64,000 nt of DNA, from contig OZ024938.1 of NCBI GenBank assembly GCA_964017235.1, positions 62,921,816-62,985,815 of the forward strand. The letters are read 5' to 3'. This document shows positions 3,541-63,005 of the stretch, piece after piece. The position numbers were made by a program, and so were the translations under genes. The DNA comes from Sabellastarte sp. h YS-2021 (lineage: Eukaryota; Annelida; Polychaeta; Sabellida; Sabellidae). Numbering within the stretch: position 1 is the first letter of the stretch; every line of letters starts with the position of its first letter. Under the pieces are notes generated by a model. That model did no database searches and was not told the origin of the DNA. It saw only the letters and a program-made list of their open reading frames with translations.

Positions 3541-4059
3541 CCCGACTCTGTAAAAGCATAAAATCACCCATTTTTAAAGTATCACAGGTACACATACACA
3601 CTAAAATGATTTGACCGGCCACATTTTATTCAAACACCAAAATATTCACATGTTCCTCAACCCTCTAAAATCGCAGATTTTGATGTTCCTCCACCCTGTA
3701 AAAGCATGAAATTGCCTAATTTTAGAATATTCCAGGTACACATCCACACTAAAATGATTTGACATGACACATTTTATTAGAACACCACCTCACCCACATG
3801 TTCCTTCACCCTGTAAAGTCACACATTTTGATGTTCCTCCATCCAGTAAAGCATGAAATTGCCTATTTTGAGACTATTCCAGGTACACATCCACACTGAA
3901 ATGCTTTGACATGACACATTTTATTCAAACACCACCTAATCCACATGTTCCTCCACCCTGTAAAGTCACATATTTAGATGTTCCTCCACCCTGTAAAAAC
4001 ATGAAATCTCACAGTTTAGTATTCCAGGTTCACATCCACACTAAAACTAGACCTACGCA
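3541..4059. repeat. Tandem array, about 147-bp unit, 3.5 copies
   Basis: The phrase CAGGTACACATCCACACTAA recurs at 3585, 3733, 3880 and 4025, giving periods of 148, 147 and 145 bp. Each unit also holds ATGTTCCTCCACCCTGTAAA and a run starting ACATTTTATT. No coding frame persists across units. The period equals nucleosome-core length, as in several other unrelated-looking arrays here. Confidence 0.88.
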
Positions 4060-4625
4060 TTAGAGAACCGATGCAAATTTGTATCCACCGAAAAGACAAC
4101 TCACCAAAGCCAGTGAATCATCTTGAAGGAGGGGCCCCAAGGTCAAATCTGAAAACATCATCAGATTTCCAGCCCATGACCTCCTATAAGTTGGTTTCAT
4201 ATTGCAAACCTCTAGTACCAATAATAAGCAAGTTATCAGCACTTTTAAGTTTGGTTATTGTCGTTTGACCTTGAAGGAGGGGTACAAGGTCAAATCTGAC
4301 CACACCAAAAGAATCTCAGCCCATGATTTCCTACATGTTGGTTTACCATCCCAAACCTCTAGGACCAATAATAAGCGAGTTATAAGCACTTTTAAGTTTG
4401 GCTATCCTCGTTTAACTTTGAAGGAGGGCTCCAAGGTCAAATCTAACCACACCAAAAGATTGCCAGCCCATGATTTCCTATAGGTTGGTTTACCATCCCA
4501 TACCTCTAGGACCAATAAAAGCAGTTTTAAGTTTGGCTATCCTCGTTTGACCTTGAAGGAGGGATCCAAGGTCAAATCTGATCACACCAAAAGATTCGTG
4601 GGGCATCCTCAGCGCTGAAGTGAGT
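4060..4625 (-). repeat. Tandem array, about 146-bp unit, 4 copies
   Basis: ACCAATAATAAGC recurs at about 4218 and 4364, a 146-bp period. Read on the minus strand each unit has TATAACTCGCTTATTATTGG, then GTTTGGGATGGTAAACC, then GGTCAGATTTGACC and a CTTCAAGGTCAAA block. It is the same family as the plus-strand array at 27640-28230, and a more distant relative of the array at 55145-55790. Confidence 0.85.
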
Positions 4626-4639
4626 GCGCGCGATGGTGG

Positions 4640-6330
4640 ATGGTATGTACGTTACTGAGCGTCCCCCCACTGTGTACATGACACAGATCCTCCTCTCCTC
4701 CCCCATCCCCCACTAGGGACATGTGTCACTGAGCGTCCCTCACTGCGTATACATGACTGAGATCCTCCTTTCCTCTCCCATCCCCCACTGAGGACATGTG
4801 TCACTGAGCGTCCCCCACTGCATACATGGCTGAGATCCTGCTTTCCTCTGCCATCCCCCACTGAGGACATGTGTCACTGAGCATCCCTCACTGGTGTACA
4901 TGGCAGAGATCCTCATCTCCTCTCCCATCCCCCACTGGGGACATGTGTCACTGAACGTCCCCCTCTGCGTACATGGCTGAGATCCTCCTCTCCTCCCCCA
5001 CCCCCCACTGGGGACATGTGTCACTGAGCGTCCCCCACTGCGTACATGCCAGAGCTCCTCTTCTCCTCCACCATCCCCTACTGGGAACATATGTGAGTGA
5101 GTGTCCCCCACTGCGTACATGACACAGATCCTCCTCTCCCATCCCCCACTGGGGACATATGTCACTGAGCATCCCCCACTGCATACATGCCAGAGATCCT
5201 CCTCTCCTCCACCATCCCCCACTTGGAACTTATGTCAGTCAGTGTCCCCCACTGTGTACATGCCAGAGATCCTCTTCTCCTCTCCCATCCCCCACTGGGG
5301 ACGTGTCACTGAGCGTCACCCACTGCATACATGGCAGAGATCCTCCTCTCATCTCCCATCCCCCACTGGGGACATGTGTCACTAAGCGTCCCCCACTTCG
5401 TACATGCCAGAGCTCCTCCTCTCCTCCACCATCCCCCACTGGGGACATGTGTCGCTGAGCGTCCCCCACTGTGTACATGGCGGAGACCCACCTCTCCTCC
5501 CCCATCCCCCACTAGGGACATGTGTCACTGAGCGTCCCTCACTGCATACATGCCAGAGATCCTCCTCTCCTCCACCATCCCCCACTGGGAACATATGTCA
5601 GTGAGTGTTCCCCACTGCATACATGGCACAGATCCTCCTCTCCCATCCCCCACTGGGGACATGTGTCACTGAGCGTCCCCCACTGCATACATGGCTGAGA
5701 TCCTCCTCTCCTCCCCCATCCCCCACTGGGGACATGTGTCACTGAGTGTCCTCCACTGCGTACATGGCACAGATCCTCCTCTCCCATCCCCCACTGGGGA
5801 CATGTGTCACTGAGCGTCCCCCACTGCATACATGACACAGATCCTCCTCTCCCATCCCCCACTGGGGACATATGTCACTGAGCGTCCCCCTCTGCGTACA
5901 TGGCTGAGATCCTCCTCTCCTCCCCCATCCCCCACTGGGAACATATGTGAGTGAGTGTCCCCCACTGCATACATGACACAGATCCTCCTCTCCCATCCCC
6001 CACTGGGGACATATGTCACTGAGCGTCCCCCTCTGCGTACATGGCTGAGATCCTCCTCTCCTCCCCCATCCCCCACTGGGGACATATGTCACTGAGCATC
6101 CCACACTGCATACATGCCAGAGCTCCTCCTCTCCTCCACCATCCCCCACTGGGAACTTATGTCAGTCAGTGTCCCCCACTGTGTACATGCCAGAGATCCT
6201 CCTCTCCTCTCCCATCCCCCACTGGGGACATGTGTCACTGAGCGTCCCCCACTGCATACATGGCAGAGATCCTCCTCTTCTCTCCCATCACCCACTAAGG
6301 ATATGTAATATTAAGCATCCTTCACTGCAT
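4640..6330. repeat. Minisatellite, 73-bp unit, about 23 copies
   Basis: GACATGTGTCACTGAGCG recurs every 73-75 bp from 4718 onward, with shorter variants of about 61 bp where part of the CTCCTCTCCTCC tract is missing. Units consist of CCCCCACTGGGGACATGTGT, GAGCGTCCCCCACTGC, a GTACATGGC word and the pyrimidine tract. The long open frames of the Gly/Trp-rich and Pro/His-rich kind are a by-product: 73 is not a multiple of three and frames rotate. A second array of the same unit lies at 20888-21408 on the other strand. Confidence 0.92.
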
Positions 6331-6424
6331 ACATTACTGGAATCATCCTCCTCCCAAGGTTTTTCATTTCTGCACAGTGTACTAAAAATAGCCTTAGAGA
6401 TGCCCACAAGGAGAAAGTCCCTAT

Positions 6425-6715
6425 GAGAAGGTAAAAGGTCAATCAAGGTTGCACACCTACAAGGTTGCACATTCTAACCAAATTCCTACAAGTTGTGATT
6501 CCTGAGACGTAGCCGAGACAAGATGTTATAGGTCGAGGTTACTACAGAAAGGTTAAATCAAGGTCACACCATGACCTTCCACACCTACACCCCCAACCAA
6601 TGTCGCAACCAAGTATTAACTTCATACACCTTACAGTTTCTCACCTTACAGTGAGATATAGTTGGACAAGATTTTAAAGGTCAAGATCATTACAGCAAGG
6701 TAAAAAGTGTAAGTG
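6425..6715 (-). repeat. Family A 146-bp repeat units, minus orientation
   Basis: About two diverged copies of the unit that fills family A elements, read on the minus strand: CAAGGTCACACCATGACC and CACCTACACCCCC are complements of GGTGTGACCTTG and GGGGGTGTAGGTG. They stand head to head with plus-oriented units that begin at about 6716. Confidence 0.75.
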
Positions 6716-7400
6716 TACGTGTGCAACATCATAGTGTGACCTCGATTTAACCTTTGACCTTGCCATAGTAACCTTTAGTTTGAAAATCTTTTCCGGGCTA
6801 TATCTCATAAACTGTAAGACATAGAAAGTTGCTTCTTGGTAGGGTCCTTAATTAGGGGTGTAGGTGTGCAACATCATGGTGTGAACTTGAGTTGACCTTT
6901 GACTTTGCTGTAGTGACCTTGATCTTTAAAATATTGTGTGGGCTGTATTTCGGAATCCATAGGGTGTAGAAGGTTGATACCTAGTAGGAACATTGGTTGA
7001 GGGTATAGGTGAGCAGCATCATAGTGTGACCATGATTTGACCTTTGACCTTGCTGTAAGATTGAAAAAAAAATTGTTTGGACTATATATCTGAAACCGTG
7101 AGGTGTAGGAAGTTGATACTTGGTGTGCACATTAGTTAGGGAGTGTAGGTGTGCAATGTCATGATGTGACCCCTTGAGTTGACTTTTGACCTTTTGGTAG
7201 TGACCTTGACTGTTAAAATGTTGTCTGGGTTATATCTGGGAAACTGTACAGCATAGGAAGTTGATACTTGGTTGGGAAATTGGTTAGAGGGTGTAGGTGT
7301 GCAAGGTCATAATGTGAATTTGATTTCCATCTGACCTTGCCGTAGTGACCGTGACCCTTGAAATCTTTTCCAGGCCATATCTTAACTAGAGATTGCATCT
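6716..7400 (+). repeat. Family A 146-bp repeat units, plus orientation
   Basis: Four to five diverged units of the family A type: TATCTC..AAACTGTAAG, GAAGTTGATACTTGGT, GGGTGTAGGTGTGCAA, then GACCTTGATTTGACC and GTAGTGACCTTGA. They are more degraded than those at 7770-8760. The stretch ends near 7410 in GTATCCCCGGACG, half of a family D-type hairpin. Confidence 0.8.
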
Positions 7401-7489
7401 CGACACAGTGTATCCCCGGACGGGACATAGTTAAGGCGTGAATATGTCGGTCTTGAGCCTGTTTCCTGGAGCACCAGGTCAGGATTCTC

Positions 7490-7672
7490 CATAGTACCAG
7501 ATTACTCCCAAAAGCTAATCACTAGTTCTTTCAGTTATATCTGTCTTTAAAAATTCATAGATCCAGAAGATCCATATAGTGATCCGGATCACTTCCAAAA
7601 ATCAATCATTTCATCCTTTTACCTTTTCAGACATATTCTAAAAATTTCATCAAAATCCGTCCATAAGTTTTT
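7490..7672. repeat. Left part of 280-bp dimer array, split by family A
   Basis: Holds ATCCAGAAGATCC, the 16-bp palindrome AGTGATCCGGATCACT and the phrase ending CCATAAGTTTTTT. The same unit resumes at 9193 on the far side of the family A element, so this is the left side of an interrupted array. Confidence 0.8.
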
Positions 7673-9192
7673 TACCCCACAGCCCTTAAGGGCTGTTGGG
7701 GTATTGTTTTCACCCATGGTGTCCGGATGGGTGGGCGGGCGGGTGAGCGGGAAATAGTTTGTCCGGGCTGTATCTCAGAAACCGTAAGGTGTAGGAAGTT
7801 GATACTTGGTAGGGACATTGGTTAGGGGGTGTAGGTGTGCAACGTCATGGTCTGACCTTGATTTGACCTTTGACCTTGCCGTAGTGACCTTGACCTATAA
7901 AATATTGTCCGAGCTATATCTCGGAAACCGTAAGGTGTAGGAAGTTGATACTTGGTAGGGATATTGGTTAGGGGGTGTAGGTGTGCAACGTCATGGTCTG
8001 ACCTTGATTTGACCTTGCCGTAGTGACCTTGACCTATAATATGTTGTCCAGGCTATATCTCGGAAACTGTAAGGCTTAGGAATTTGACATTGGTTAGGAG
8101 GTGTAGGTGTGCAATGTCATGGTGTGACCTTGATTTGACGTTTGACCTTGCTGTAGTGACCTTGATCTATAAAATGTTGTCCGGGCTATATCTCAGAAAC
8201 TGTAAGGTGTAGGAAGTTGATACGTGGTACGGATATTGGTTAGGGGGTGTAGGTGTGCAACGTCATGATGTGACCTTGATTTGACCTTTGACCTTGCCGT
8301 AGTGGCCTTGACCTATAAAATTTTGTCCGGGCTATATCTCAGAAACCGTAAGGTGTAGGAAGTTGATACTTGGTAGGGATATTGCTTAGGGGGTGTAGGT
8401 GTGAAACGTCATGCTCTGACCTTGATTTGACCTTTACCTTGCCGTAGTGACCTTGACCTATAAAATATTGTCCGGGCTTTATCTCGGAAACTGTTAGGTG
8501 CAGGAAGTTGATATTTGGTAGAGACATTGGCTAGGGGGTGTAGGTGTGCAGCATCATGGTGTGACCTTGATTTGACCTTTGACCTTGCCATAGTGACCTT
8601 GACCTATAAAATCGTCAGGGCTGTATCTCTGAAACCGTAAGGTGTAGGAAGTTGATACTTGGTAGGGACATTGGTTATTGGCTATAGGTGTGTATTATCA
8701 TGGTGTGACCTTAATTTGACCTTTTACCTTGCCGTAGTGACCTTGACCTTTAAAATCTTGTTGCACCTTTGGGTCTGTCTTTTGATGCAGATTAAGCAAA
8801 AGTCATATTAGAATTTATTAAGAATTTTACTTTCATAACTTCCCATTGTAAGAGATAGAATTTCATCAAGTGAAAGTCAAGATTTTACTCCAACACCACA
8901 CATAAGCATTCATTAAATGTATTACCACTTCTGTATGCATGGTAATATTCAAACCATCTAAACCATAATTTGGAAATGCAGATGTACATAAAGAGTGTTG
9001 AATTTTAGTTTACTGATTAATGCTGTCATCTTGTCATTGAATTATCTTGTTTTAATACTTGTTTTGGACCTTTATATAACTGACAGTGTTCTGAAAGTAT
9101 CCTGAAGTTTGTACTGTACAGTACTTCTATATCTCATGGTGTTGAAAATATTTCCCAAGGCTGTGGGGTACGGGCATCTCTGATGCTATTTT
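7673..9192 (+). mobile_element. Family A element, complete copy 1 (Helentron-associated/DINE-1-like)
   Basis: The left end is TACCCCACAGCC (7673-7684), part of a palindrome around GCCCTTAAGGGC at 7675-7701, followed by TATTGTTTTCACCC and a GGGCGGGCGGG tract. The middle is a 146-bp tandem array. A unique 3' part of about 430 bp ends in the perfect inverted partner GGCTGTGGGGTA (9159-9170), a small hairpin GCATCTCTGATGC (9174-9186) and TATTTTTT. Subterminal inverted repeats, internal tandem array, 3' hairpin and T-run insertion are the pattern described for non-autonomous Helentron-associated elements; that class assignment is inference. No protein is encoded. Confidence 0.75.
7770..8760 (+). 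repeat. 146-bp tandem array inside family A copy 1, about 7 units
   Basis: TATCTC begins at 7771, 7917, 8056, 8189, 8335, 8480 and 8624, mostly 144-146 bp apart with two shortened units (139 and 133 bp). Each unit reads ATATCTCGGAAACCGTAAGG, GTAGGAAGTTGATACTTGG, GGGGGTGTAGGTGTGCAA, GACCTTGATTTGACC and TAGTGACCTTGACC. Confidence 0.92.
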
Positions 9193-10650
9193 TTAGTTAT
9201 CTTGTGCACAAACACATCTGGCAGCCTGGATCCACATGATCCAGACAGTGATCCAGATTAGTCACAAAAACTAATCACTTGTTCTTTGTCCCATTTAAGA
9301 CATTTCCTGAAAATTTCATAAAAATCCATCCATGACCTTTTGAGCTATTTGTCTTTAAAAATTACATTTCTTGGATCCAGAAGATCGAGATAGTGGTCCA
9401 GATCACTGGCAAAATTGAATCATTTCTTCCTTTTACCACTTCTTCCTTTTACCATTTGTAACATATCCTAAAAATATCAAAGTCCATCCCAAGATTATGT
9501 GGCAGCCTGGATCCAGATGATCCAGACAGTGATCCATATCACTCCAAAAATTTAATCACTTGTACCATATAGGTCATTTGCTGAAACAATCCATCCATAA
9601 CTTTTTGAGGTATCTGTCTTTAAAAATTACATTTCATGGATCCAGAAGATCCATATAGTGATCCGGATCACTTCCAAACTTCAATCATTTCATCCTTTTA
9701 CCTTTTCAGACATATCCTAAAAATTTCATCAAAATCCGTCCATAAGTTTTTGATTTATCTTGTACACAAACACATCTGGCAGCCTGGATCCAGATTATCC
9801 AGATCACTCCCAAAATCTAATCACTTGTTCCTTGTCCCATTTAGGACATTTCCTGAAAATTTCATCAAAATCCACCCATGACTTTTTGAGCTATTTGTCT
9901 TTAAAAATAATATTTCATGGATCCAGAAGATCCAGATAGTGGTCCAGATCACTCGCAAAATTGAACCATTTCTTCCTTTTACCACTTCTTCGTTTTACCA
10001 TTTGTAACATATCCTAAAAATATCATCAAAATTCATCCTAAAATTATGTTGCAGCCTGGATCCAGATGATCCAGACAGTGATCCAGATCACTCCAAAAAT
10101 GTAATCACTTGTTCCTTGTACCATTTAGGTCATTTGCTGAAAATGTCATCACAATCCATCCATAACTTTTTGAGGTATCTGTCTTTAAAAATTACATTTC
10201 ATGGATCCAGAAGATCCATATAGTGATCCGGATCACTTCCAAAATTCAACCATTTCATCCTTTTACCTTTTCAGACATATCCTGAACATTTCATCAAAAT
10301 CCACCCATAAGTTTTTGAGCTATATTGTACACAAACACATCTAGCAGCCTGGATCCGGATGATCCAGACAGTGATCCAGATCACTCCCAAAATCTAATCA
10401 TTTGTTCCTCGTCCCATTAAGGACATTTCCTGAAAATTTCATCAAAATGCACCCATAAGTTTTTGAGCTATTTGTCTTTAAAAATTAAATTTCATGGATC
10501 CAGAAGATCCAGACAGTGATCCGGATCACTCCCAAAATTTAATCATATCTTCCTTTTACCATTTTGGTCATATCCTGAAAATTTTATCAAAATCCATCTG
10601 TCAGTTTTTGAGTTATCTTGTTCACAAACAAACAAACAAATAGAGGGCCA
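9193..10650. repeat. Tandem array, about 280-bp dimer of two 140-bp types
   Basis: ATGGATCCAGAAG-type starts recur near 9364, 9636, 9916, 10200 and 10493 (272-293 bp apart). Two alternating half-units both hold GGATCC, a dyad GTGATCC(A/G)GATCAC and ATTTCATCAAAATCC. One half ends in TTATCTTG(T/A)ACACAAAC, the other in ATTTGTCTTTAAAAATTA. On the minus strand the unit reads ATAACTC, AAAAACTTATGG, GATTTTGATGAAATTTTCAGG in pieces, the clearest copy of the core shared by arrays in this window. The array ends in an (ACAA)n run at 10625. Confidence 0.88.
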
Positions 10651-11378
10651 AAAATGACCCTCGGTCAGGTACTTTGGCGGTCAGTGGATGACCTTAAATG
10701 AAGATCTGTAACCGGTAAGCCAGGATGCTGGTACTCCATCATGTACTCAACCTCCAAAGCCATTTTCAATAGTTTCCATGCAATGTAGTCAGCATTAAGT
10801 GTGAAAATATCTCCAATTTTGCCAAAAATGACCCTTGGTCAGGTACTTTTGCGGTCAGTGGATGACCTTAAATGAAGATCTGTAACCAGTAAGCCTGGAT
10901 GGGAAAAGTCCATCATGTACTCAACCTGCAAAGCCATTTTCAAAAGTTTACATGCAATATAGTCAGCATTAAGTGTGAAAATATCTCCAAAAATGACCCT
11001 CGGTCAGGTACTTTGGCGGTCAGTGGATGACCTTCACTGAAGAGCTTCAAGGTCAAATTTCTGCATGCTTACAGAGGACATATATACGTATTATATATAC
11101 CAGCCATAGGATGATCTGACTTTCTGTATAGGAGAACTGGGCCAAAAAGTGAAAAAATGGCCAAAATCTGACCTTTAACAGGCCACCAGTGACCTTGAGA
11201 TTGAAGGTCAAGGTCACAAAACAATAGCGTTCGTGGCATTGCCCATATATACCCACATACCAAATTTGAAAGTTCTAACTAAAATATTTTTTAAGTTATC
11301 GCATCCAAAAGGAAATCTCTGCGGCGGCGGCGTGACCGTACTGAATCCTAAGTATCCCCGACTTTCGTCCGGGGATAC
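10650..11378 (-). mobile_element. Family D hairpin-headed element, minus strand
   Basis: The head is at 11352-11378: GTATCCCCG and CGGGGATAC arms around a short loop. Then, reading leftward, come CGCCGCCGCCGC, AGAGATTTCC and ATAACTTAAAAAATA. A unique part follows, with GGTCACTGGTGGCC and GGCCATTTTTTCAC. The tail holds about 2.4 tandem copies of a 160-bp unit containing TACCTGACCGAGGGTCATTT. The same order recurs at 61633-62150 on the plus strand, so it is a dispersed family. The outer left limit is uncertain. Confidence 0.7.
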
Positions 11379-11597
11379 AATTAGTAGGTTGAAAAGACAG
11401 AAGCTCAGGGATGACCATTTATCAATGTCCTTGAGGTTCTTTAGCCTGCCACTAGGGATAGGATACAATGACAGAAAACTGCCAATTTAGGTGGTCATCT
11501 GAGCCACTATATATCTGCCTGCACCTGTGTTTGAACAGAAGTCCTTTGTGTCCCTAGGTGAGTGTGTTACCCACTAGGCCACAGTAGCGGATAGCCA
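11379..11597 (-). mobile_element. tRNA-derived SINE, minus strand
   Basis: On the minus strand the segment starts with a tRNA-like head: A-box-like GGCCTAGTGGGTAACAC (11564-11580) and B-box-like TGTTCAAACACAGG (11524-11537), at tRNA-like spacing. A tRNA-unrelated body follows, abutting the family D head at 11378. It is not a working tRNA: the acceptor stem and T arm do not pair. Internal Pol III promoter boxes plus an unrelated body are the definition of a tRNA SINE. Confidence 0.65.
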
Positions 11598-12938: not shown

Positions 12939-13329
12939 TTAAGCGTCCCGCAAGGGACGCTTGTTTGTGTATGGGAGAGCTTCCGGCTCCGCCGGCTCCG
13001 CATTTTGTTTTCCTTATAACTCTGTAACCGTTAGGCGGATTCTTTTCAAATTTGGCAGGTTTAGGCAGTAGCCTTGGGGAATTTTTTTGAATATGCTGCA
13101 ATGACATTTCAACCAATCAGAGAGGTCACATGACCAAAAATGTCTTTTTTCGATGGGGAAGCTTGTCCGGATGATAACTTGAAAGGAATTTTATCAATTC
13201 ACCTGAAACTTGGCAAATACATTCATTCTATTAAAATCTGGAAATCATTAGATTTTGGCATTGATTGGTCAAGAAATGGCCAGGTAATTAATGATTAATT
13301 AATCATTACGAATTTTCCAAATAAGGAAA

Positions 13330-14440
13330 ACACAAAAATGCTTATATCTCGAAAACCGTGCTAGATAGAGCGATTTCGACGAAATTTTTGACCCACAGGG
13401 TATCTCTGCGGAGTAGTTTTCCCAATTTTCAAAAAATTTTTGTCTCGCCCAAAATGGCGGCCATTTTGAATTTTCGAAATTTTCGCAAAAATTGCAAAAC
13501 ACAAAAATGCTTATATCTCAAAAACCGTGCTAGATAGAGCAATTTCGACAAAATTTTTGACCCGCAGGATATCTCTGCGGAGTACTTTTCCCAATTTTCA
13601 AAAAATTTTTGTCTCGCTAAAAATGGCGGCCATTTTGAATTTTCGAAATTTTCGCAAAAATTGCAAAACACAAAAATGCTTATATCTCGAAAACCGTGCT
13701 AGATAGAGCGATTTCGACGAAATTTTTGACCCGCAGGGTATCTCTGGAGAGTAGTTATCCCAATTTTGAAAAAAAAAATTTCTAGCCAAAAATGGCGGCC
13801 ATTTTGAATTTTCGAATTTTTCGCAAAAATTGCAAAACATAAAAATGGTTATATCTCGAAAACCCTGCTAGATAGAGCGATTTCGATGAAATTTTTGACC
13901 CACAGGGTATATCTGCAGAGTAGCCATGCCAATTTTCAAAAAAATTTTGTCTCGCCAAAAATGGCGGCCATTTTGAATTTTCGAATTTTTCGCAAAAATT
14001 GCAAAACATAAAAATGCTTATATCTCAAAAACCCTGCTAGATAGAGCGATTTTGACGAAATTTTTGACCCACAGGGTATCTCTGCAGAGTAGCCATGCCA
14101 ATTTTCAAACAAAAAATTTCTCGCAAAAAATGGCGGCCATTTTGAATTTTCGAATTTTTCGCAAAATTGCAAAACACAAAAATGCTTACATCTCGAAAAC
14201 CGTGCTAGATAGAGCGATTTCGACGAAATTTTTGACCCACTGGGTATCTCTGCAGAGTAGCCATGCCAATTTTCAAATAAAATTTTGTCTTGCCAAAAAT
14301 GGCGGCCATTTTGAATTTTCGAATTTTTGCGCAAAAATTGCAAAACACAAAAATGCTAATATTTCGAAAACCGTGCTACATAGAGCGATTTCGACGAAAT
14401 TTTTTATCTTCAGGGTATCTCTGCAGAGCAGCTATCCCAA
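13330..14440 (+). repeat. 169-bp tandem array, about 7 copies
   Basis: CTTATATCTC recurs at 13341, 13510, 13679, 13848, 14017, 14185 and 14356, giving 168-171 bp. Each unit has ATATCTCGAAAACCGTGC, GATAGAGCGATTTCGACG, AAATTTTTGACCCACAGGG and the near-palindrome AAAATGGCGGCCATTTT. The 135-140 codon open frames seen on both strands shift frame each unit and are not genes. Confidence 0.93.
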
Positions 14441-16306
14441 AGAGCTTTCACTTGGTGAAGTTTCAGACCCATAGCTAATTGCTCACCTACTCAAAAAGAG
14501 TAAATGCGAATTACCTCTAAAAGTATTGCAGATGGCCAATTTTTCTCAAATAACTCATTCACCTACTTTTGGAAGAGCTTTCACATGGTGAAGTTTCAGA
14601 CCCATAGCCAATTACTCACCTACTCAAAATGAGTAAATGCGAATTATCTCTAAAAGTATTGCAGATAGCCAATTTTTCTCAAATAACTCATTCACCTACT
14701 TTTGGGAGAGCTTTCACATGGTGAAGTTTCAGACCCATAGCTAATTAGTTACCTACTCAAAATGAGTAAATGCTAATTATCTGTAAAAGTATTGCGGATA
14801 CCCAATTTTTCTCAAATAACTCATTCATCTACTTGTGGGAGAGCTTTCACATGGTGAAGTTTCAGACCCATAGCTAATTACTCACCTACTCAAAATGAGT
14901 AAATGCGAATTATCTCTAAAAGTATTGCAGATAGCCAATTTTTCTCAAATAACTTATTCACCTACTTTTGGGAGAGCTTTCACTTGGTGAAGTTTCAGAC
15001 CCATAGCTAATTACTCACCTACTCAAAATGAGTAAATGCAAATTATCTGTAAAAGTATTGCAGATAGCCAATTTTTCTCAAATAACTCATTCACCTACTT
15101 TTGGGAGAGCTTTCACTTGGTGAAGTTTCAGACCCATAGCTAATTACTCACCTACTCAAAATGAGTAAATGCGAATTATCTCTAAAAGTATTGCAGATAG
15201 CCAATTTTTCTCAAATAACTCATTCACCTACTTTTGGGAGAGCTTTCACTTGGTGAAGTTTCAGACCCATAGCTAATTACTCACCTACTCAAAATGAGTA
15301 AATGCGAATTATCTCTAAAAGTATTGCAGATAGCCAATTTTTGTCAAATTAATCATTCACCTACTTTTGGGAGAGCTTTCACTTGGTGAAGTTTCAGACC
15401 CATAGCTAATTACTCACCTACTCAAAATGAGTAAATGCGAATTATCTCTAAAAGTATTGCAGATAGCCAATTTTTCTCAAATTAATCATGCACCTACTTT
15501 TGGGAGAGCTTTCACTTGGTGAAGTTTCAGACCCATAGCTAATTACTCGTCTACTCAAAATGAGTAAATGCGAATTATCTCTAAAAGTATTGCAGATGGC
15601 CAATTTTTCTCAAATAACTCATTCACCTACTTTTGGGAGAGCTTTCACTTGGTGAAGTTTCAGACCCATAGCAAATTACTCACCTACTCAAAATGAGTAA
15701 ATGCGAATTATCTCTAAAAGTATTGCAGATAGCCAATTTTTCTCAAATAACTCATTCACCTACTTTTGGCAGAGCTTTCACTTGGTGAAGTTTCAGACCC
15801 ATAGCTAATTATTCACCTACTCAAAATGAGTAAATGTGAATTATCTCTAAAAGTATTGCAGATAGCCAATTTTTCTCAAATAACTCATTCACCTACTTTT
15901 GGGAGAGCTTTCACTCTGTGAAGTTTCAGACCCATAGCTATTTATTCACCTACTCAAAATGAGTAAATGCTAATTATCTGTAAAAGTATTGCGGATACCC
16001 AATTTTTATCAAATACTCATTCATCTACTTGTGGGAGAGCTTTCACATGGTGAAGTTTCAGACCCATAGCTAATTACTCACCTACTCAAAATGAGTAAAT
16101 GCGAATTATCTCTAAAAGTATTGCAGATAGCCAATTTTTCTCAAATAACTCATTCACCTACTTTTGGGAGAGCTTTCACTTGGTGAAGTTTCAGACCCAT
16201 AGATAATTATTCACCTACTCAAAATGAGTAAATGTGAATTATCTCTTAATAGTATTGCAGATAACCAATTTTTCTCAAATAACTCATTCACCTACTTTTG
16301 GAAGAC
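14441..16306 (+). repeat. 133-bp tandem array, about 14 copies
   Basis: AGAGCTTTCAC recurs at 14441, 14574, 14707, 14840, 14973, 15106 and 15239, exactly 133 bp apart, and continues to about 16300. Each unit holds GGTGAAGTTTCAGACCC, ATTACTCACCTACTC, AAAATGAGTAAATGCG and AATTATCTCTAAAAGTATTG. It is very homogeneous, so probably recently amplified or still being homogenised. The same unit forms the arrays at 46330-46820 and 51775-52205. Confidence 0.95.
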
Positions 16307-16314
16307 CTTTCACA

Positions 16315-16714
16315 TAGGGGTGGGACGAGTACAAATAATTCGGGTCGATTACTCGCGGACCAAAAATCGACTCGACATCGAGCACTCGCGAAGTTTAGTA
16401 TCCACCATTACAGGAACCAACATCCAATATGGCGGCTCCCGTAAACAATAAAAATATAGAGGTAAAAGCTTTGAATCGCTTGAATTAGCTGATGTCATCA
16501 TATAATATACTTAATATTATGTTAAAAATGGTGGATTATGCGATTTAATGCTAGCAAGGTATGTTCTTTAATTTTTATTTCCTAAAAAACGTAACCGCTT
16601 CAATAGGTTGTTATGTACTTGTATACATACGAGTAGTCGACTCTTAAAATTGGGATCGAATTTTCGTGAAATTTGCCTCGCTCGGCGAGTGTCGACTGCT
16701 CGGTCGCACCCCTA
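16315..16714. mobile_element. hAT-type MITE, 400 bp, with 8-bp target duplication
   Basis: The left end TAGGGGTGGGACGAG is matched in inverted orientation by the right end CTCGGTCGCACCCCTA. The element is flanked by the perfect 8-bp duplication CTTTCACA at 16307-16314 and 16715-16722. Short TIRs starting TAGGGG(T/C)G and 8-bp duplications are hallmarks of hAT transposons. The inside (ATTACTCGCG, CGACTCGACATCGAG, ACTCGTATGTATAC-like words on the other strand) has no transposase frame, so it is non-autonomous. It sits in the last 133-bp unit of family C copy 1. Confidence 0.88.
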
Positions 16715-16722
16715 CTTTCACA

Positions 16723-17085
16723 CACGAAAATGAAAAGTTGTGAATATCTCGGAAAAGCTATTTCTTCTGCTTTAATGCTCGGCGGGAGATACACACCACG
16801 GCAGTGGTCTTGACAAAAATTTTTGTCTCCCCAAAAATGGTGGCCATTTTGAATTTTCAAAGTTTTTGCAAAACACAAAAATGCTTATATCTCGAAAACC
16901 GTGCTATATGGAGTGAACTCAACAAAATTTTGGACCTGCTGGGTATCTCTGCAGAGTAGCCATGCCAATTTTCAAAATATTTTTGTCTCGCCAAAAATAG
17001 CGGACATTTTTAATTTTTTTATTTTTTGCAAAACACAAAAATGCTTATATCTTGAAAACCGTGCTAGATAGAGCAGACTGCGCTG
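16723..17085 (+). repeat. Residual 169-bp units after the MITE
   Basis: Two degraded units of the 169-bp family: ATATCTCGAAAACCGTGC at about 16888 and a TATCTTGAAAACCGTGC at about 17047. They are preceded by GAATATCTCGGAAAAGC and GCTCGGCGGGAGATACA, which match 12690-12750. They break off at GATAGAGCAGACTGCG. Confidence 0.75.
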
Positions 17086-17306
17086 ACTTTGGTTGCCACA
17101 ACAGTATAAGGCTAGAAACGAAGCATTTTCTTAATACTTTAGCACTCACCTTTATATTCTTTTCGGGACGCTTTGTTTTTGCTATGCAAAAACATTATCT
17201 TTTTTTTTTTGCGAGCGATCCTCTAGTTTTTTTGTTTTTTTTTTATAAAGAGGTAACATATATACAACTCCAACTTTTCACATGTTATATAGACTTTAGT
17301 GCTTTT
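17086..17306. other. Short unclassified segment
   Basis: Unclassified sequence between the family C residue and family A copy 2, with T-rich runs (for example 17198-17210). No open frame or repeat relationship that I can support. It is the left flank of the family A insertion, ending in a run of five T. Confidence 0.5.
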
Positions 17307-18761
17307 TACCCCACAGCCCTTAAGGGCTGTCGGGGTATTGTTTTCACCCATGGTGTCCGGATGGGCAGGCAGGTGGGTTGGCCGGCGGCGGGAAATAGTT
17401 TGTCAGGGCTGTATCTCAGAAACCGTAAGGTGTAGGAAGTTCATACTTGGTAGGGACATTGGTTGGGGGGTGTAGGTGTGCAACGTCATGGTCTGACCTT
17501 GATTTGACCTTTGACCTTGCCGTAGTGACCTTGAGTTTGAAAATCTTATCCGGGCTATATCTCGGAAACTGTAAGGTGTAGGAAGTTGATACTTGGTAGG
17601 GACATTGGATAGGGAGAGTAGTTGTGAAAAGTCATAGTCTGACCTTTATTTGACCTTTGACCTTGCCATAGTGACCTTGACCTATAAAATCCTGTCCGGG
17701 CTATATCTCGGAAACTGTAAGGTGTAGGAAGTTGATACTTGGTGGGGATATTGGTTAGGGGGTGCAGGTGTGCAACGTCATGGTCTGACCTTGATTTCAC
17801 CTTTGACCTTGCTGTAGTGACCTTGACCTATAAAATGTTGTCCGGGCTATATCTCGGAAACTGTAAGGCATGGGAAGTTGATATTTGGTAGGGACATTGG
17901 TTAGGGGGTGTAGGTGTGCAATGTCATGGTGTGACCTTGATTTGACCTTTGACCTTGCCGTAGTGACCTTAACCTATAAAATCTTGTCCGGGCTATATCT
18001 CGGAAACTGTAAGGTGTAGGAAGTTGATATTTGGTGGAGACATTGGTTAGGGGGTGTAGGTGTGCAGCATCATGGTGTGACCTTAATTTGACCTTTGACC
18101 TTGCCATAGTGACCTTGACCTATAAAATCTTGTCAGGGCTATATCTCAGAAACCGTAAGGTGTAGGAAGTTGATACTTGGTAGGGACATTGGTTAGGGGC
18201 TATAGGTGTGTATTATCATGGTATGACCTTAATTTGACCTTTTACCTTGTCGTAGTGACCTTGACCTTTAAAATCTTCATGGACCTTTGGGTCTGTCTTT
18301 TGATGCAGATTAAGCAAAAGTCATATTAGAATTTATTAAGAATTTTACTTTCATAACTTCCCATTGTAAGAGATAGAATTTCATCAAGTGAGCCTCAGAT
18401 TTTGCTCCAACACCACAATAAGCATTCATTAAATGTATTACCACTTCTGTATGCATGGTAATATTCAAACCATCTAAACCATAATTCGGCCATGCAGATG
18501 TAGATAAAGAGTGTTGAATTTTAGTTTACTGATTAATGCTGTCATCTTGTCATTGAATTATCTTGTTTTAATACTTCATCTTTATACGCATTATCTTTCT
18601 TTTAAACATTATTTCTCCATTTAAACATTGTTTGGACCTTTATATAACTGACAGTGCTCTGAAAGTATCCTGAAGTTTGTACTGGTACAGTACTTCTATA
18701 TCTCATGGTGTTGAAAATATTTCCCTAGGCTGTGGGGTACGGGCATCTCTGATGCTATTTT
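17307..18761 (+). mobile_element. Family A element, complete copy 2
   Basis: Same structure as copy 1: TACCCCACAGCC at 17307-17318 within the GCCCTTAAGGGC palindrome, TATTGTTTTCACCC, a G/C tract, about six 146-bp units (17400-18280), the shared 3' unique region, GGCTGTGGGGTA at 18728-18739, GCATCTCTGATGC at 18743-18755 and TATTTT. The 3' region carries a 40-odd-base insertion near 18575-18625 relative to copy 1. Having two full copies fixes both ends of the family. Confidence 0.78.
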
Positions 18762-19026: not shown

Positions 19027-19495
19027 TTAAAGTTCAATTTCTGAAAAAATATCTTCGCAATGTCCCCATCTGGTTTTAAATAAGTTTATACCAGTATCTG
19101 TTTGTGCCAAATATTTTTGCTCTAGAAATTTTCTTTTTAATTCTTTCTGCAGACAAAATATGTTAAGATGGCTGTTTTTTCTCGATGTTTGGAAAATGTA
19201 ATTCCTTGATAGGAGAAGTATGAAATTTATTGGCCAAAAGAACTGATCATTTATTAGATATCCAAGTATCTTCATTTTGGCAGTGAACACAAGAGGTATC
19301 CCCATTTTAATTTTTAACCAAGTTTCTATATTATTCTACAAGTCTTCACCTTTAACACAATCGCTAAGCAAGTGGAGACATGTTTCTGTGTATTCATTGC
19401 ACATATTACACATCTTGTCTTCTTTAATTTTCACCTTATGCAGGTAGTCATTAAGCGTCCCGCAACTTTAATTTTCACCTTATGCAGGTAGTCAG
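19027..19495 (-). pseudogene. LINE (L1/Tx1-like) ORF2 C-terminal fragment
   Basis: On the minus strand the frame reads LNDYLHKVKIKEDKMCNMC, then NEYTETCLHLLSDC: a C-x2-C-x8-H-x4-C knuckle of the kind found at the C-terminus of L1-clade reverse-transcriptase proteins. It continues through NIETWLKIKMG to INFILLLSRNYIFQT, LKRKFLEQKYLAQ and the tail ending FSEIEL, a layout typical of these proteins' last 100 residues. One in-frame TAG at 19336-19338 sits where the family usually has Trp. The 5' side is cut by family C copy 2. Function is lost; only the 3' end of the element survives. Confidence 0.72.
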
Positions 19496-19510
19496 TAAGC
19501 GTCCCGCAAG
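19423..19510. repeat. 44-bp tandem duplication across the family C boundary
   Basis: Positions 19423-19466 and 19467-19510 are near-identical. Each holds about 28 bp of LINE sequence (TTTAATTTTCACC, TTATGCAGGTAGTCA) followed by the first 14-15 bp of the family C head (AAGCGTCCCGCAA). They differ at about two positions. The duplication therefore happened after, or during, insertion of family C. Confidence 0.9.
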
Positions 19511-46280: not shown

Positions 46281-46329
46281 TGCACCACAGTACTCTATTA
46301 GTAGGCTTTATGTCTAAATTAGGCCTGTG

Positions 46330-47171: not shown

Positions 47172-49260
47172 TTATATCCCCAGACGAAAGTCGGGGATAT
47201 ATTGGATTCAGGTCCGTCGCGCCGCCGCCGCCGTAGAAATTTCCTTGTGGACGCGATAACTCAAAAACAAATTAATATTTTTTTTTCAAACTTGGTACAC
47301 ATGTTAAGGGTGCCCAAAGGAAGATCCCTATTTTAAGGTGACCTTAAACTCCCAGTAAAAAAGAACTTATGGCCACCTTAAGGTCAGAAATTGCACTTTT
47401 GGCCACTTAGAGCCCTGTAGGTCACAAACTATGATGCTCAGCTGGCTGAAATTTTACCTGACAACACATTAATATGTTCTTAGTACATGTGCCGAAAATC
47501 ACGACTTTAAGTTGAGGAGAAAATTGTGTTTGAGGCTCATAAATACCCCCACTTAGGGATTTTTTGCTATACTTTTCACATATTTTGCCCTATAATTTGG
47601 AAGTGGTAATTCTGATGAGTCTCAAACTGCTCTAGGTATAACTTTGATATGTAATCCTTGTCTGTAGAAAATTTTAGGGCTGTAGGTTTACCCAAAGGGG
47701 TCGACTTAAGGTCTCAAAAGTGCCCACAGAGACCCAATTTATGCACTTTTTGCCACTTTCAAGCACTGTAGCTTTCAAACTATGTCTCTCATCTAAGTTA
47801 AATATCATCTGGGAATATATCTATGTGTTTTCTTATATGTGCCCCAACATTTAGGCCTTTAATAGACAGTTAACCTGTGTATCAGGACCATAAACACCCA
47901 CCCGAGTGACCCTTATAAGACATTTTTCACATCTTTTTCCCTGTAACTTGGAAATGGTAAGTCTGAGAAGTTTCAAACTGTATTAGATATATATTCTGTG
48001 TGTAATCTTAGTATGTAACAGATTTTAAGTCTGAAGCTTTAATTTTGAAGGTCAAATTGAGGTCTCTAAAAGGCTCCCAAAGACCCAATATTTGGACTTT
48101 TTGCTACTTTTAAGCCCTGTGACTGTTAAACTATGTGACTGATAGAGCTCAAATCCTATCTGGGAAGATATTAGTATGTTATTTTTATATGTGCCAAAAA
48201 TTAAGGCTTTAAGAAGACATTTAACCTGTGTATGAGGACCATAAATCCCCACCCGAGTGACCATTTTTAGACATTTTTCACATATTTTTCCCTGTAACTT
48301 GGAAATGGTAAGTCTAAGAAGTTTCAAACTGTATTAGATGCATATTCTATGTGTAATCTTAGTATGTGACAAATTTTAAGTCTGAAGCTTTAATTTGAAG
48401 GCCACATTTAGGTCTCTAGAAGGCCCCATAAAGACCCAGTAGTTGGACTTTTTGCCAATTTTAAGGCCTGTGACTGTTAAACTATGTGACTGATAGAGCT
48501 GAAATCTCATCTGGGAATACATTATTATGTTCTTTTTACATGTGCCAAAAATCAAGGCTTCAAGTAGACATTTAACCTGTGTATGAGGACCTTAAACACC
48601 CACCTGAGTGACCCTTTTAAGACATTTTTCACATATTTTGCTCTGTAACTTGGAAATGGTAAGTCTGAGAAGTTTCAAACTTTATTAGATACATATTCTA
48701 TGTGTAATCTTAGTATGTACCAAATTTTAAGTCTGAAGCTTTAATTTGAAAGCCACATCGAGATCTCTAAAAGGCCCACAGAGACCCAATATTTGGACTT
48801 TTTACCACCTTTAAGCCTTGTGACTGTTAAACTATGTGATTGATGGAGCTGAAATCCCATCTGGGAATACATTATTATGTCCTTTTTACATGTGCCGAAA
48901 ATCAAGGTTTTTAGTAGACATTTAACCTGTGTATGAGGGCCATAGACACTCGCCCAAGTGCCTTTTTGGACATTTTTTACGTATTTTGCCCTGTTATTTG
49001 GAAATGCTTAGTGTGACAAGTCTTAAACTGTATTATATATAATTTTTGTTTGTTATGTATGTCCCCCAAAAAGTTTCAGATCTGTAGTTTAATTGCTAAG
49101 GTCTCTTTAACAATTGTAAAATGCCCACAGAAACCCAATTTATGGACATTACGCCACTTTAAAGCCCAGTAACTGTCAAACTATGTGGGTTATAGAGCTG
49201 AAATCTTTGAATTTTTCAAAGGAAATGCCTGTCTATTTAAATTTTGATTATTAATAATGT
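47172..49260 (+). mobile_element. Family D-type head with 350-bp tandem array, nested in LINE
   Basis: The head hairpin is at 47174-47200 (ATATCCCC and GGGGATAT arms around AGACGAAAGTC), then GGATTCAGGTCCGTCGCG, CCGCCGCCGCC, AGAAATTTCCTTGTGG and GATAACTCAAAAACAAAT. About five units of 350 bp follow: TGTAACTTGGAAATGGTAAG-like starts near 47591, 47941, 48293, 48644 and 48991. Units also hold GACATTTTTCACATATTTT, CTGTGACTGTTAAACTATGT and AGACATTTAACCTGTGTATG. The right limit within 49260-49650 is not clear. Confidence 0.7.
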
Positions 49261-50397: not shown

Positions 50398-51774
50398 TTA
50401 ATCAAAATATTTGTACAAATTGCCAAAAAATTTGTCAAATGCTTCTAGTTTTTCATGTAAAATATAACTCGTTCTCAAAATTTCTAGTTTTTCTTTTACT
50501 AAACATATAAAGTTGGGAAATTCTATTCGCTGATTATTAGATCGTTGTTTATTAATGTACCATTTTCCTAACAATATAATGTAATTAAACACAAACTGTA
50601 CATACTCATCAGTGAAGGAGGTTCTGAAGAATCCAAAGATTATTTCACATATTGTGAAGTTGAACTTTATATTAGTTATGTTATATAGCCATACGGTAAC
50701 TTCCTTCCAAAAGTTATTTGAGTCACTACAGTAGTAAAAGTGGTGCTCTATAGTGTCAGTTTGAATGCAGTAATTACAAGTTTTTGAAGAGATTATCTTC
50801 CATTTGTAGAGATTATATCGACAATTAATGGTTCTATTTAAAACTTTGTATTGGAATGACTGTAAGTAGGGTTCTTTCGTTATTTTATATATTAATATAA
50901 ACACAGACTTCCACTCAATATGTTCCAAAAAAGGGAATAAATCCAACCAAGTTTCTATAGCTGTGGGTTCTTTTACCATATCTCTTATTAGTTCGGAATA
51001 TACTTTCCTACTTGTAATTCTGGTAATTTCTGTTACTCTATTGTTAAGAATTAAACTGAATTTGGGGATTGCTGTATACTTACATGTTACATTGTTTATT
51101 TTTAATTTCCAATATTTTGGAATAGCATCCAATAGGGAGTATATATTAATAATGTTTGTGTTCCATTCTGGCCTTGCTCTTAAGTTTTCGGCTGTTGCCA
51201 ATTTTTTCTCACTATCTAAGAGATCAACTATTTTTAGATTGATTAAGTCGATATCTAATCCTAATTCTTTTGGGTGGATATGTGATTTGTTTATAGTGAT
51301 CTCATTGTTAAAGAATAAATACTCATTCAAAATGTTCTGCAAATTTTCAGGAGGTTTATTTTTTATTTTAAACCATGCCTGTAGGGTTTGCTGATGGAAC
51401 TTTGAAATTAAACTTTTACTGATGTCATTATATGCTGGTTTGTGGTCTAACATAAACTTTTTAAGGCCACATACATTTAAAAATAGATTTAAGCATTTAC
51501 CATCTTCTACAAGTAAATTCTTTATGAAGGATATTTTTTGAGCTTCTTGAAAAGCAAACACCTCCGGCATTTTTAAGCCACCGCTGTCTATAGGTGCTAT
51601 TACAGTTTCTCTCTTAACTCTTGGAGGCTTGTGGTTCCATAAAAAGTTAAAAATTATTTTGTCTAACTGTTCTAAAATGTATTTTGGTGTAAAAGTAGTG
51701 CCGAAAAGATGTACAACTTGAGATAGTATTAAAGTTTTGATTATCATGATGCGTCCTTTCCAAGATAAGCTTGG
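50398..51774 (-). pseudogene. LINE ORF2 C-terminal region (L1/Tx1-like), truncated
   Basis: Open from the truncation point (PSLSWKGRIMIIKTLILSQ) to the stop at 50398, about 458 codons with no internal stop. The start SLSWKGR and IIKTLILSQ, then KIIFNFLWNHKPPRVKR and GGLKMPEV, are the conserved region just after the RT domain in L1/Tx1-type ORF2 proteins. A zinc knuckle C-x2-C-x7-H-x4-C lies at residues 324-340 counted from Met (CNYC...H...C). The endonuclease and RT domains are absent through 5' truncation, so it is a dead copy, but the intact frame suggests a young insertion. Confidence 0.88.
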
Positions 51775-54763: not shown

Positions 54764-55800
54764 AAGCATCCCTGAAAGGGCGCTTATTTGTTTTTTTGCT
54801 TCAGTTTCCTCGCCGCCGCCACATTGTGGTCTCCCTTGAATATCTCCCTTATTATTGGAAGCTTTCTAACCATATTTGGCAGTTATATACCTTTGGTGTG
54901 GGAAAAATTTTCCACATGATTAAATTTGACCTTTATCAAGGTCATTTAATCAAAATATAGTTTTTTGCGAACACCCGCCTGTCATTGCCGCTCAGCAGAA
55001 TCTACTGACCACAGCAGCTTGTCATTCCATACACATGTTTATGCTCAAAAAACGCAAGCTGATTAGATTTTGGGAGCGATCCGATGAAAATTGACCGATT
55101 TATGATTGATTTTCTCACAGGTACCAACCAGAAAGCTTAAAATTCATGTGAACCCCCCTATTGTGTTCTTAAATATTGCATTTAGAGCCATAAAATGTAT
55201 TGTAAGGTAGTAGGAAACCATATGTGGAGAGCCTAGAAAGCAAGTCAATCACCCCGCCCGACCCCCAGTAGGGGTCATCCTGGGGTCATAAAGTAGCGGA
55301 TTTTGACATTTTGCCTTATATCTCCTTTATTATTGCTTTTAGAGCTTTAGAATGTATTAAGAGGTATTGGGAAACAGTATGTTCAGAATTTATATAGCCG
55401 GTCAGATTTAACCCCTAACCCCTCCTTATGGGTCAAACTGGGGTCATAGGATAGCCAATTTTGTGTTTTTCCTTATGTCTCTTTTATTAATGCTTTTACA
55501 GCTTTACAATGTATTAAGAGGTGTTGGAAAACCATATGTGGAGAGTCTATATAGCTGGTCAGATGATTTAGCCCCTGTCCCCCTTTATGGGTCAAACTGG
55601 GGTCATGAAATAGCAGATTTGGTCCTTTTTCCTTATACCTCCTTTATTATTGCTTTTACAGCTTTCAATGTATTGAGAGGGATATAGGAATGCATATACA
55701 GATAGTCTACATAGCCAGTCAGATTTACACCGTCCACCCCCACCTTATGGGTCAAACTGGGCTCATAAAATAGCAGATTTTTTTTTGTATTGCCCTGAAC
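54764..55800 (+). mobile_element. Family C-like head with 158-bp tandem array
   Basis: The head hairpin 54764-54785 (AAGCATCCC / GGGCGCTT) is followed by ATTTGTTTTTTTGC, CCTCGCCGCCGCC, GAATATCTCCCTTATTATTGG and CCATATTTGGCAG. A 200-bp leader precedes about four units of a 156-160 bp repeat (TATATCTCCTTTATTATTGC near 55318, 55474 and 55634; CCCCTCCTTATGGGTCAAAC). The repeat is a distant relative of the 146-bp family at 4060 and 27640. Confidence 0.65.
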
Positions 55801-61632: not shown

Positions 61633-62150
61633 GTATCCCCAGATGAAAGTCGGTTATACTTAGGATTTGGTACGGTCACACCACCACCGCCGCCACCACA
61701 GAGATTTCCTTTTGGACACGATAACTTAAAAATTATATTAGAGAGACCTTTCAAATTTGGAATGTGGGTATATATGGGCTATGCCACAAACGCTGTTGTT
61801 TTGTGACCTTGACCTTCAATTTCACTGGTGGCGTCTTAAAGGTCACATTTTGGCTATTTTTTCACATTTTGGCCCAATTGTCATGTACAGAAAGTTAGAT
61901 CATCCTATGGGAGGTATATAAAATACATGTATATGTCCTCTGTAAGCATTCAGAAATTGACCTGAAGCTCTTCATTGAAGGTCATTAACAGACTGCCACA
62001 GTACCTCACCGAGGCCATTTTTGGAAATATTTTCACACTTAATACTGACTATATTGCATGCAAACTATTGAAAATGGCTTTGGGGGTTGAGTACATGATG
62101 GAGTACCAGCATCCAGTTTGTTGACCTTGGCTTTTGTTTTCAAGGTCACC
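61633..62150 (+). mobile_element. Family D element, plus-strand copy
   Basis: A degraded head hairpin begins GTATCCCC at 61633 (right arm mutated to GGTTATAC). Then CACCACCACCGCCGCCACC, AGAGATTTCCTTTTGG, GATAACTTAAAAATTA, CAAATTTGGAATGTGGG and TATATGGGC. The order of unique words (GTTGTTTTGTGACCTTGACC, TGGCTATTTTTTCAC, TATGTCCTCTGTAAGCAT, GAGTACATGATGGAGTACC) is that of 10650-11378 on the other strand. The 3' end is not identified. Confidence 0.7.
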
Positions 62151-62289
62151 TTAGGCCTGCTAAAATGACTCAAAATGGTACCTTTTAGTGCATATATATG
62201 TCTATATAAGACTGTGACGCCATATACCTGCTTTAATATTGGCTGTATAACTTATTGGCTCATGTTAATTATCTCTAGATGGCCTGCTG

Positions 62290-62495
62290 GACAGATTATG
62301 TATGGCATAATTACATAGCCAAGTGAGTAATAGCACTAGTAGATACTTTTGAGTAAAGTATTTATAACTCAAAAAAATGACTGCATTTACAACATTTTGG
62401 TAAAATGTGTTGTTCAGCTACTTTCTCCATGCCTACAAGGTGGTAACTTTTTCAGAGGTCTGTCTCAATAGCTACATGAGTAATAGCTATAAAGG
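62290..62495 (+). repeat. Single diverged unit of the 155-bp family
   Basis: AAGTGAGTAATAGC, TTATAACTCAAAAAAATGAC, TGCATTTACAACATTTTGG and TGTTGTTCAGCTACTTTC place it in the family of 25830-27450. It precedes yet another GC-rich head. Confidence 0.7.
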
Positions 62496-62503
62496 CTGGG
62501 GTT

Positions 62504-63005
62504 AAAGTCGTCCCCTGCGACGTCTGGGCGCGGCGGCGGCAGGCATAAAGCTTGCGGGTCTTTCACAGCCTGAACTCCTTCATGGATTTTCACCAAATTT
62601 TCAGGGGATGTTTATCCCAAGAGTATCTAGAGCTGATAAGGTTTTGGGGGTATCCGGTGACAACTGTTGCCATGGCAACACTTTTAAGATTTTCGGGTCT
62701 GAAAGTTGTGGGTGTTCCACAGCCTAAACCCGTGCACAGATTTTTACCAAATTCTCAGGACATGTTTTCCCAAAGTGGATCTATAGCTGATTAGGTTTTG
62801 AGGGGTATCCAACGGCAACTGTTGCCATGGCAGCACTTTTAAGATTTTCAGGTCTTAAAGTTTGTGCGTGTTCCACAGCCTAAACCCCTATATGGATTTT
62901 CACTGAATTTTCAGGATATGTTTACCCCAAGAGGATTTAGAGCTGATTAGGTTTTGAGGGGGTATCCAGCGACAACTTTTAAAATTTTGGGGTCTTAAAG
63001 TTTGT
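62504..63005 (+). mobile_element. Hairpin-headed element (family E) with 155-bp x3
   Basis: GTCGTCCCCTGCGAC is a small hairpin at about 62508, followed by GTCTGGGCGCGGCGGCGGC. Three units of 154-156 bp follow (CACAGCC at 62564, 62718 and 62874): AACTCCTTCATGGATTTTC, ACCAAATTTTCAGGGGATG, CCAAGAG(T/G)AT and GACAACTGTTGCCATGG. The hairpin, GC triplets and AAATTTTCAGG core repeat the plan of families C and D. Confidence 0.6.

Follow-up and report, generated by a model that had tools for sequence, protein, structure and literature searches.

A two-box core at fixed spacing in the left ends of HINE-type elements and in part of their arrays in Sabellastarte

The window analyzed here is a stretch of 64,000 nucleotides from the sabellid annelid Sabellastarte sp. 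h YS-2021 (C19:62921816-62985815 of the 1.786-Gb genome). Tandem Repeats Finder returned 64 overlapping rows for this window, which we grouped by hand into 16 array families. Some of these families carry a short core, and the core-bearing arrays are the central repeats of HINE elements, i.e. non-autonomous Helentrons, which are rolling-circle transposons. The core adjoins the left-end microsatellite of HINE-type elements and spans 41 bp in one register: [GT]ATAACTC, two unspecified positions, AAAC, 19 free bp, and AAA[CT]TTGG (aligned by eye from several pieces). It thus consists of two boxes, the starts of which lie 33 bp (∼3 helical turns) apart. Both boxes and their spacing are common to left ends with otherwise unrelated flanks. 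The original prediction for this window had been that one ancestral core of 45 bp runs through nearly all tandem-repeat families, as a module that was repeatedly captured and re-amplified.

The elements and arrays concerned are listed below, where fractions of 1000 or 300 give the number of shuffled sequences that scored as high as the feature, with the group under test held out.

7673–9187, plus strand: D-type HINE, both ends present; hairpin ACAGCCCTT/AAGGGCTGT, then a microsatellite rich in G, with the core at 7769 as the first D146 monomer
9159, plus strand: right end of this D-type HINE; subterminal repeat GGCTGTGGGG, palindrome GCATC-TCT-GATGC
9189–11380, minus strand: one or more HINEs; hairpin at 11351–11379, core at 11300, F174 array, TTTG microsatellite at ∼10640, E293 array
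12939–17194, plus strand: C-type HINE; hairpin AAGCGTCCC-gcaa-GGGACGCTT, short GC-rich repeat, cores at 13015 and 13173, H169 and I133 arrays
13015–13055, plus strand: full 41-bp core of the C-type left end (0/1000, C group held out)
13173–13213, plus strand: second core in this left end, 158 bp past the first (0/1000)
13327–14440, plus strand: H169 array, in which the left half-core recurs every 169 bp (left half 0/300, full core 168/300)
14441–16313, plus strand: I133 array, a relative of J155, in which the matrix recognized no core
17165, plus strand: right end of the C-type HINE, ∼4.2 kb from its start; subterminal repeat GGGACGCTT, then a palindrome
17307–18757, plus strand: second copy of the D-type HINE; cores at 146-bp intervals starting at 17410; subterminal repeat of the right end at 18728
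19495–20661, plus strand: second C-type HINE; H169 array and I133-like sequence behind a left end that has two cores
24900–25226, plus strand: short third copy of the D-type HINE; cores at 24990 and 25129
25874–28490, plus strand: J155 array followed by B147 array; putative right end bearing palindrome AGTGCCCGTTCACGGGCACT; B and J each with the left half-core (0/300)
42403–43965, plus strand: J155 array and putative right end of the same kind as at 25874–28490
44814–46820, plus strand: L-type HINE; hairpin GTATCCCCG...CGGGGATAC, GTCGTCCGCG microsatellite, L157, J155, and I133 arrays
47172–49039, plus strand: M-type HINE; hairpin TATATCCCC...GGGGATATA, CGCCGCCG run, core at 47255, M351 array
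54765–55781, plus strand: N-type element; left end resembling C (by eye), N160 array, and a stretch at 54839 that is core-like and in register
61634–61760, plus strand: P-type left end; decayed TATCCCC hairpin without intact stem, CCACCGCCGCC run, core at 61720 (27.4 bits, 0/1000)

The long C-type HINE contains ∼0.4 kb of other sequence near 16320–16720 (by eye), and for the second C-type HINE no GGGACGCTT right end was found. At 19422–19509, the junction of flanking sequence and C-type left end is directly duplicated over 44 bp, giving two successive 5′ ends. Within the minus-strand stretch, the E293 cores are ∼146 bp apart (F core 0/1000, E array 0/300), and no separate E-type hairpin was seen within the window. 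The M-type HINE carries the core in its left end (0/1000) and in its array (0/300); the L-type HINE has only the right half, in L157 (7/300). No left end matching the arrays at 25874–28490 was identified.

A typical left end consists, in this order, of a hairpin, a short G+C-rich or GTCY-like microsatellite, and the two-box core, which adjoins the microsatellite in six left-end groups. Perfect 9-bp hairpin stems occur in the C, D, M, L, and F left ends, and stems with one mismatch at several E loci and at two of three X2 loci; one of seven X1 loci also has a hairpin, and the decayed N and P left ends show no stem. GC-rich runs were seen by eye in the C, D, M, N, and P left ends, and in X1 a GTCC microsatellite and the core both lie within a 157-bp tandem unit. 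M, F, P, and X3 have further words in common around the core. When 31 copies of the C-type leader were aligned from their sharp border, they read TT, AAGCGTCCC-gcaa-GGGACGCTT, the GC-rich short repeat, and the core; the 5′ hairpin was recognized in 26 of them and is preceded by TT in 25 of these 26. By eye, the flanks of the copies differ, with the exception of one identical pair. At the right end, a subterminal repeat complementary to the 5′ one is combined with a palindrome in the C-type HINE (17165) and in both long D copies (9159 and 18728). Such a right end was not found for M, L, N, and P.

One D-type HINE (7668–9190) sits, as judged by eye, in an A/T run of an E-array core, more precisely in its T run, and an M-type copy follows TTT in a Rep reading frame, which identifies both as insertions. 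The latter copy (L044, C11:69208214-69208780) interrupts the Helitron Rep reading frame directly behind the HLH stretch. At another locus (L038), a C-type copy lies immediately past the left box in a monomer resembling B147. In view of this copy and of the D-type HINE in the E-array core, the core may serve as an insertion target.

Statistical support for the core was assessed with matrices, because pairwise BLAST between families was too weak to detect it. The first matrix comprised ten window cores, left ends and arrays together, with related families held out jointly and 500 shuffles for comparison. The C leader, the M leader, D146, and M351 scored above all shuffles; J155, E293, and H169 were equaled by 4, 10, and 27 shuffles, respectively, and the other 11 of the 18 targets were not significant, with nothing found in B147. 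This matrix was replaced by a stricter one that contained 11 left-end cores only, in six groups, the whole group under test being held out; for arrays, their own left-end group was dropped where it was known. Ten of the 11 left-end cores scored higher than any of 1000 dinucleotide shuffles; the best match fell where expected in nine of them and on the second monomer in D.

For a scan of the window itself, nine left-end cores were combined into a matrix; five of these came from the window. At a cut-off of 11 bits, 37 places were found, compared with none in the reversed window. The cores at 11300 (minus strand) and 61720 (plus strand) were matched although they were outside the nine-core matrix. 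Relatives from the M group were in that matrix, but with the M group held out both cores still scored 0/1000. In pairwise comparison of seven left ends of different types, the identity of the left box is 0.72 and that of the right box 0.77, compared with 0.39 in the middle, 0.34 downstream, and 0.29 upstream (permuted values 0.26–0.33). Of the two, the right box provides cleaner evidence, because the left box had been used to retrieve three of the seven. A scan against Rfam returned nothing at gathering scores.

Genome-wide, the left box, a free gap of 4–34 bp, and the right box gave 10,381 matches, compared with 9 for the reversed pattern, and core matches are spread over many contigs. Among 100 places listed, all on C1, the gap was exactly 19 bp in 94 (counted by eye), with several differing middles. 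A second, related pattern had 7,759 matches and 0 when reversed, nearly all of C-type among the 100 places listed; matches of the two patterns can overlap. The most independent search did not require the right box and looked for GTCCGTCC 5–35 bp ahead of the left box. It yielded 67 matches (∼61 distinct, as microsatellite runs were counted repeatedly) versus 3 for the reversed pattern. The 30 loci from this search represent at least five types, and the right box follows at an offset of 33 bp in 20 of them, 34 bp in two, and 30 bp in one. When eight loci (L001–L008) were retrieved by the right box alone, three (L002, L006, and L007) had a partly decayed left box at the same distance. The word GATTTTGATGAAATTTGGCAG of the original prediction had 912 matches with up to three mismatches, compared with 60 reversed, and represents mainly the E-type version; a shortened GATTTTGATGAAATTTGGCAG joined to the left box matched twice, once at the right spacing. 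The core patterns had no match in viral contigs.

Although the core exists in the left ends, it does not extend to nearly all tandem-repeat families. With the left-end matrix, and the longest tract of each family (for K41, 28836–30300), the full core is supported in three of the 16 array families, D146, E293, and M351 (0/300 shuffles each). The left half is supported in three more, B147, H169, and J155 (0/300 each), whose full-core scores were reached by 9, 168, and 25 of 300 shuffles, respectively. Half matches are weak in F174 (left, 5/300), P156 (left, 7/300), and L157 (right, 7/300), and the longest tracts of A148, C73, G64, I133, K41, N160, and O44 gave neither core nor half core. In pairwise comparison of the families, four of 120 pairs were above all 40 dinucleotide shuffles (I133–J155, B147–N160, E293–P156, and B147–H169); I133 and J155 are 63.7% identical over 586 bp. 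As to single instances, the minus-strand region 9193–10650 contains seven core matches in E293, from 10617 to 9349, in one register, and the instances at 13015, 7771 (core at 7769), and 47251 (core at 47255) have the core in the same register. The H169 instance at 13343 retains the left box but not a significant full core, and for the instance at 62570, in P156, the full-core score was reached by 26 of 300 shuffles. P156 resembles E293 in the right-hand part only (pairwise score 38, shuffle maximum 31). The predicted fixed order of words was confirmed, with the boxes in one register at a fixed spacing, and the phase of the cores within the units is kept wherever successive cores were recognized.

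Successive recognized cores or half cores are mostly 133–176 bp apart, leaders included, and the units of 280 and 350 bp in the original prediction are dimers of ∼146 and ∼175 bp. The E dimer has the core in both halves; the second half of the M dimer has only a weak left box, in the first units. Tracts of the six families with a core or half core, and of I133, measure 0.25–1.9 kb in the window, short of the many kilobases of classical satellite arrays. In five of five array families, conservation inside the arrays is slightly higher in the core window than outside it. As a separate observation, TGACCTT, which we take to be a nuclear-receptor half-site, is a second word common to array families. 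It is strongly enriched in D146 (6713–8761, 17400–18277, and 24973–25226; 60 occurrences, whereas 20 shuffles averaged 0.65) and in B147 (4122–4597 and 27643–28216; 13 versus 0.2).

We compared 84 bp of the first monomer or left end with later repeats of the same element. Identical positions numbered 80, 76, and 68 for the three D copies, 68 for an E locus (L082), 78 for L, 84 for X1, and 73 and 71 for two X2 loci, whereas a shuffled query reached 43. The array monomers of D, E, L, X1, and X2 are thus copies of the left end of the element itself, so that no capture is needed there. I133 stands behind two different left ends, of C-type (14441) and of L-type (46334), which indicates that arrays do get exchanged between elements.

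Three further features of the window can be described briefly. An 11-kb array at 28836–39841 is composed of 41- and 167-bp units with a higher-order repeat of ∼2.04 kb, in which hairpins recur at 0.60 and 1.44 kb; no core was found in it by the matrix scan, nor in the part tested separately (28836–30300). A GC-rich 73-bp array is present on opposite strands at 4654–6296 and 20882–21407, with no core and no recognized element ends. On the minus strand, a reading frame of 449 amino acids (50398–51747) contains PF13966, the zinc-binding domain of reverse transcriptases, and is probably the remnant of a long interspersed nuclear element (LINE).

The anatomy of these elements has precedents. Bivalve HINE arrays, their GTCY microsatellites, and common monomer segments (PMC7492417), the BIV160/Cg170 motifs (PMC5139131), and the fly core (PMC2374699) are already published. 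In Cg_HINE of Crassostrea gigas, the left flank is made of a subterminal inverted repeat, its partner repeat, and a microsatellite (several GTCY, GTCC, or GTCK); the central arrays mostly have 140–180-bp monomers in one orientation, some elements possess two arrays, the right flank combines a subterminal repeat with a palindrome, and insertion occurs at oligo-T (PMC7492417). The elements of the window have the same succession of left flank, array, and right flank. Monomers of Cg_HINE CL4 share two conserved segments with the otherwise dissimilar CL1, 2, 10, and 13, and the available text describes no core beside the microsatellite across unrelated left flanks (PMC7492417).

DINE-1 and mini-me of Drosophila have a GTCY-rich microsatellite in a conserved block, central repeats, and subterminal inverted repeats, and insert at TT (PMC2374699, PMC4067079). 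Their conserved core, of 33 bp in mini-me and >90 bp in DINE-1, is suggested by the authors to have a role in transposition (PMC2374699, PMC4067079), and it lies beside the microsatellite, at the same place as here (PMC2374699). The central repeats of these fly elements are said to lack homology among species, and no core-derived arrays are described in the available parts of these papers (PMC2374699, PMC4067079). In the BIV160/Cg170 superfamily of bivalve satellites, related monomers (∼160–170 bp by name) have two motifs that are conserved despite divergence, and Cg170 is found partly in Helitron-type elements (PMC5139131). The pearl elements CvA, CvE, CvG, DTC84, and MgE, compared by description only, are modular, with short ∼160-bp arrays and in some cases a microsatellite-like segment (PMC7492417, PMC5139131, PMC11136912). 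A single core that keeps its spacing in unrelated HINE left ends and occurs in their arrays was not found described in the literature searched, outside of which lay most subscription papers, Repbase, and supplements.

Two further sequences were also scored with the left-end matrix. A putative version of the fly core was equaled by none of 2000 shuffles, which we regard as a lead only; no copy of it was found in viral or prokaryote contigs. A moth repeat was equaled by 142 of 2000 shuffles and is not supported, and it had no copy in viral contigs either.

Judging from these sequence comparisons, the core-bearing arrays are probably HINE central repeats for which the left-end core, kept as a cis site, served as the seed by duplication. 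A cis site is suggested because both boxes are kept together with their spacing of ∼3 helical turns. The transposition machinery, or a host factor used by it, would have to bind the left-end core, and owing to this requirement the boxes would stay while their surroundings change. Replication slippage or unequal exchange at the core site could duplicate the segment from core to core and thereby produce the ∼130–190-bp arrays, with rolling-circle replication as a possible occasion. The array copies, freed from constraint, would then decay.

Several results weigh against this reading. With its group held out, the N-type left-end core is not significant (459 of 1000 shuffles as good), and the right box as written is missing in seven of the 30 loci retrieved by GTCCGTCC and the left box. 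The initial alignment of left ends was made by eye, and E, X1, X2, and X3 were retrieved via the left box, which is therefore not independent there. The M left end does not match its own array (37 of 84 positions), and the C left end is unlike its own array beyond the core. In only one of five array families is the core window the best of all windows. Finally, no autonomous partner was found among the Helitron_like_N matches scanned (15 of 24 in the genome, together with flanks of 1.5 kb, and for six of the 15 also farther upstream). The sole core there belongs to the M-type HINE inside the reading frame, and the six upstream stretches had none.

The boxes might instead be the leftover similarity of old, diverged left ends of one HINE superfamily, common by descent only and without present function. 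The further words common to M, F, P, and X3 would be expected of such relatives, and identity in the middle and downstream is above the permuted values. However, neutral decay is not expected to spare both boxes and their spacing, and the spacing is constant though the middles change; the boxes keep an identity of 0.72–0.77, whereas the middle has 0.39 and the upstream sequence 0.29. We therefore consider common descent alone an unlikely explanation.

Repeated capture of one module by different elements, followed by re-amplification, was the explanation given in the original prediction. The exchange of I133 between left ends shows that arrays can move, and capture is possible for C and M, whose repeats do not match their own left ends beyond the core. 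As a general rule, capture is contradicted by the repeats of D, E, L, X1, and X2, which match their own left ends. Moreover, the module occupies the same place beside the microsatellite in every left end, and a captured piece of 45 bp would have brought its middle along, but the middles differ. Capture thus appears improbable as the origin of the arrays.

A host protein that maintains the array boxes for a chromosomal role, in the manner of the CENP-B box, would account for the slightly better conservation of the core window in all five array families and for the left box retained in the H, J, and B arrays. A function in arrays predicts the reverse of what is seen, namely a full core in 10 of 11 left ends but in three of 16 array families, and the matches are distributed over many contigs. 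The core is often lost in arrays and only modestly conserved there, which argues against a function of the arrays themselves, and we regard a role of this kind as highly improbable. Chance similarity of AT-rich sequence, with which the 116 of 120 family pairs that do not exceed all shuffles would agree, is practically dismissed and is refuted for the left ends by the held-out tests (0/1000 for 10 of 11) and the reversed controls in the window (37 versus 0) and the genome (10,381 versus 9), being possible only for A148, C73, G64, K41, O44, and N160.

For the HINE class, retention of the left-end core as a cis site and seed of arrays bears on a question that is left undecided in the available text of PMC7492417, namely whether HINE arrays were captured or formed from the element itself; a core that links left end and array provides a testable marker for it. 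The same applies to the fly core, whose function is merely suggested in the accessible part of PMC2374699 and for which a core of fixed spacing would likewise be a testable marker. More tentatively, the two-box core with its 33-bp spacing might be an ancient Helentron-type cis site, from flies to clams, and the seed of much of the dispersed bivalve satellite DNA (130–190-bp monomers) through duplication of the elements' own left ends. The core offers a grouping of satellite families that seem unrelated when they are named by unit.

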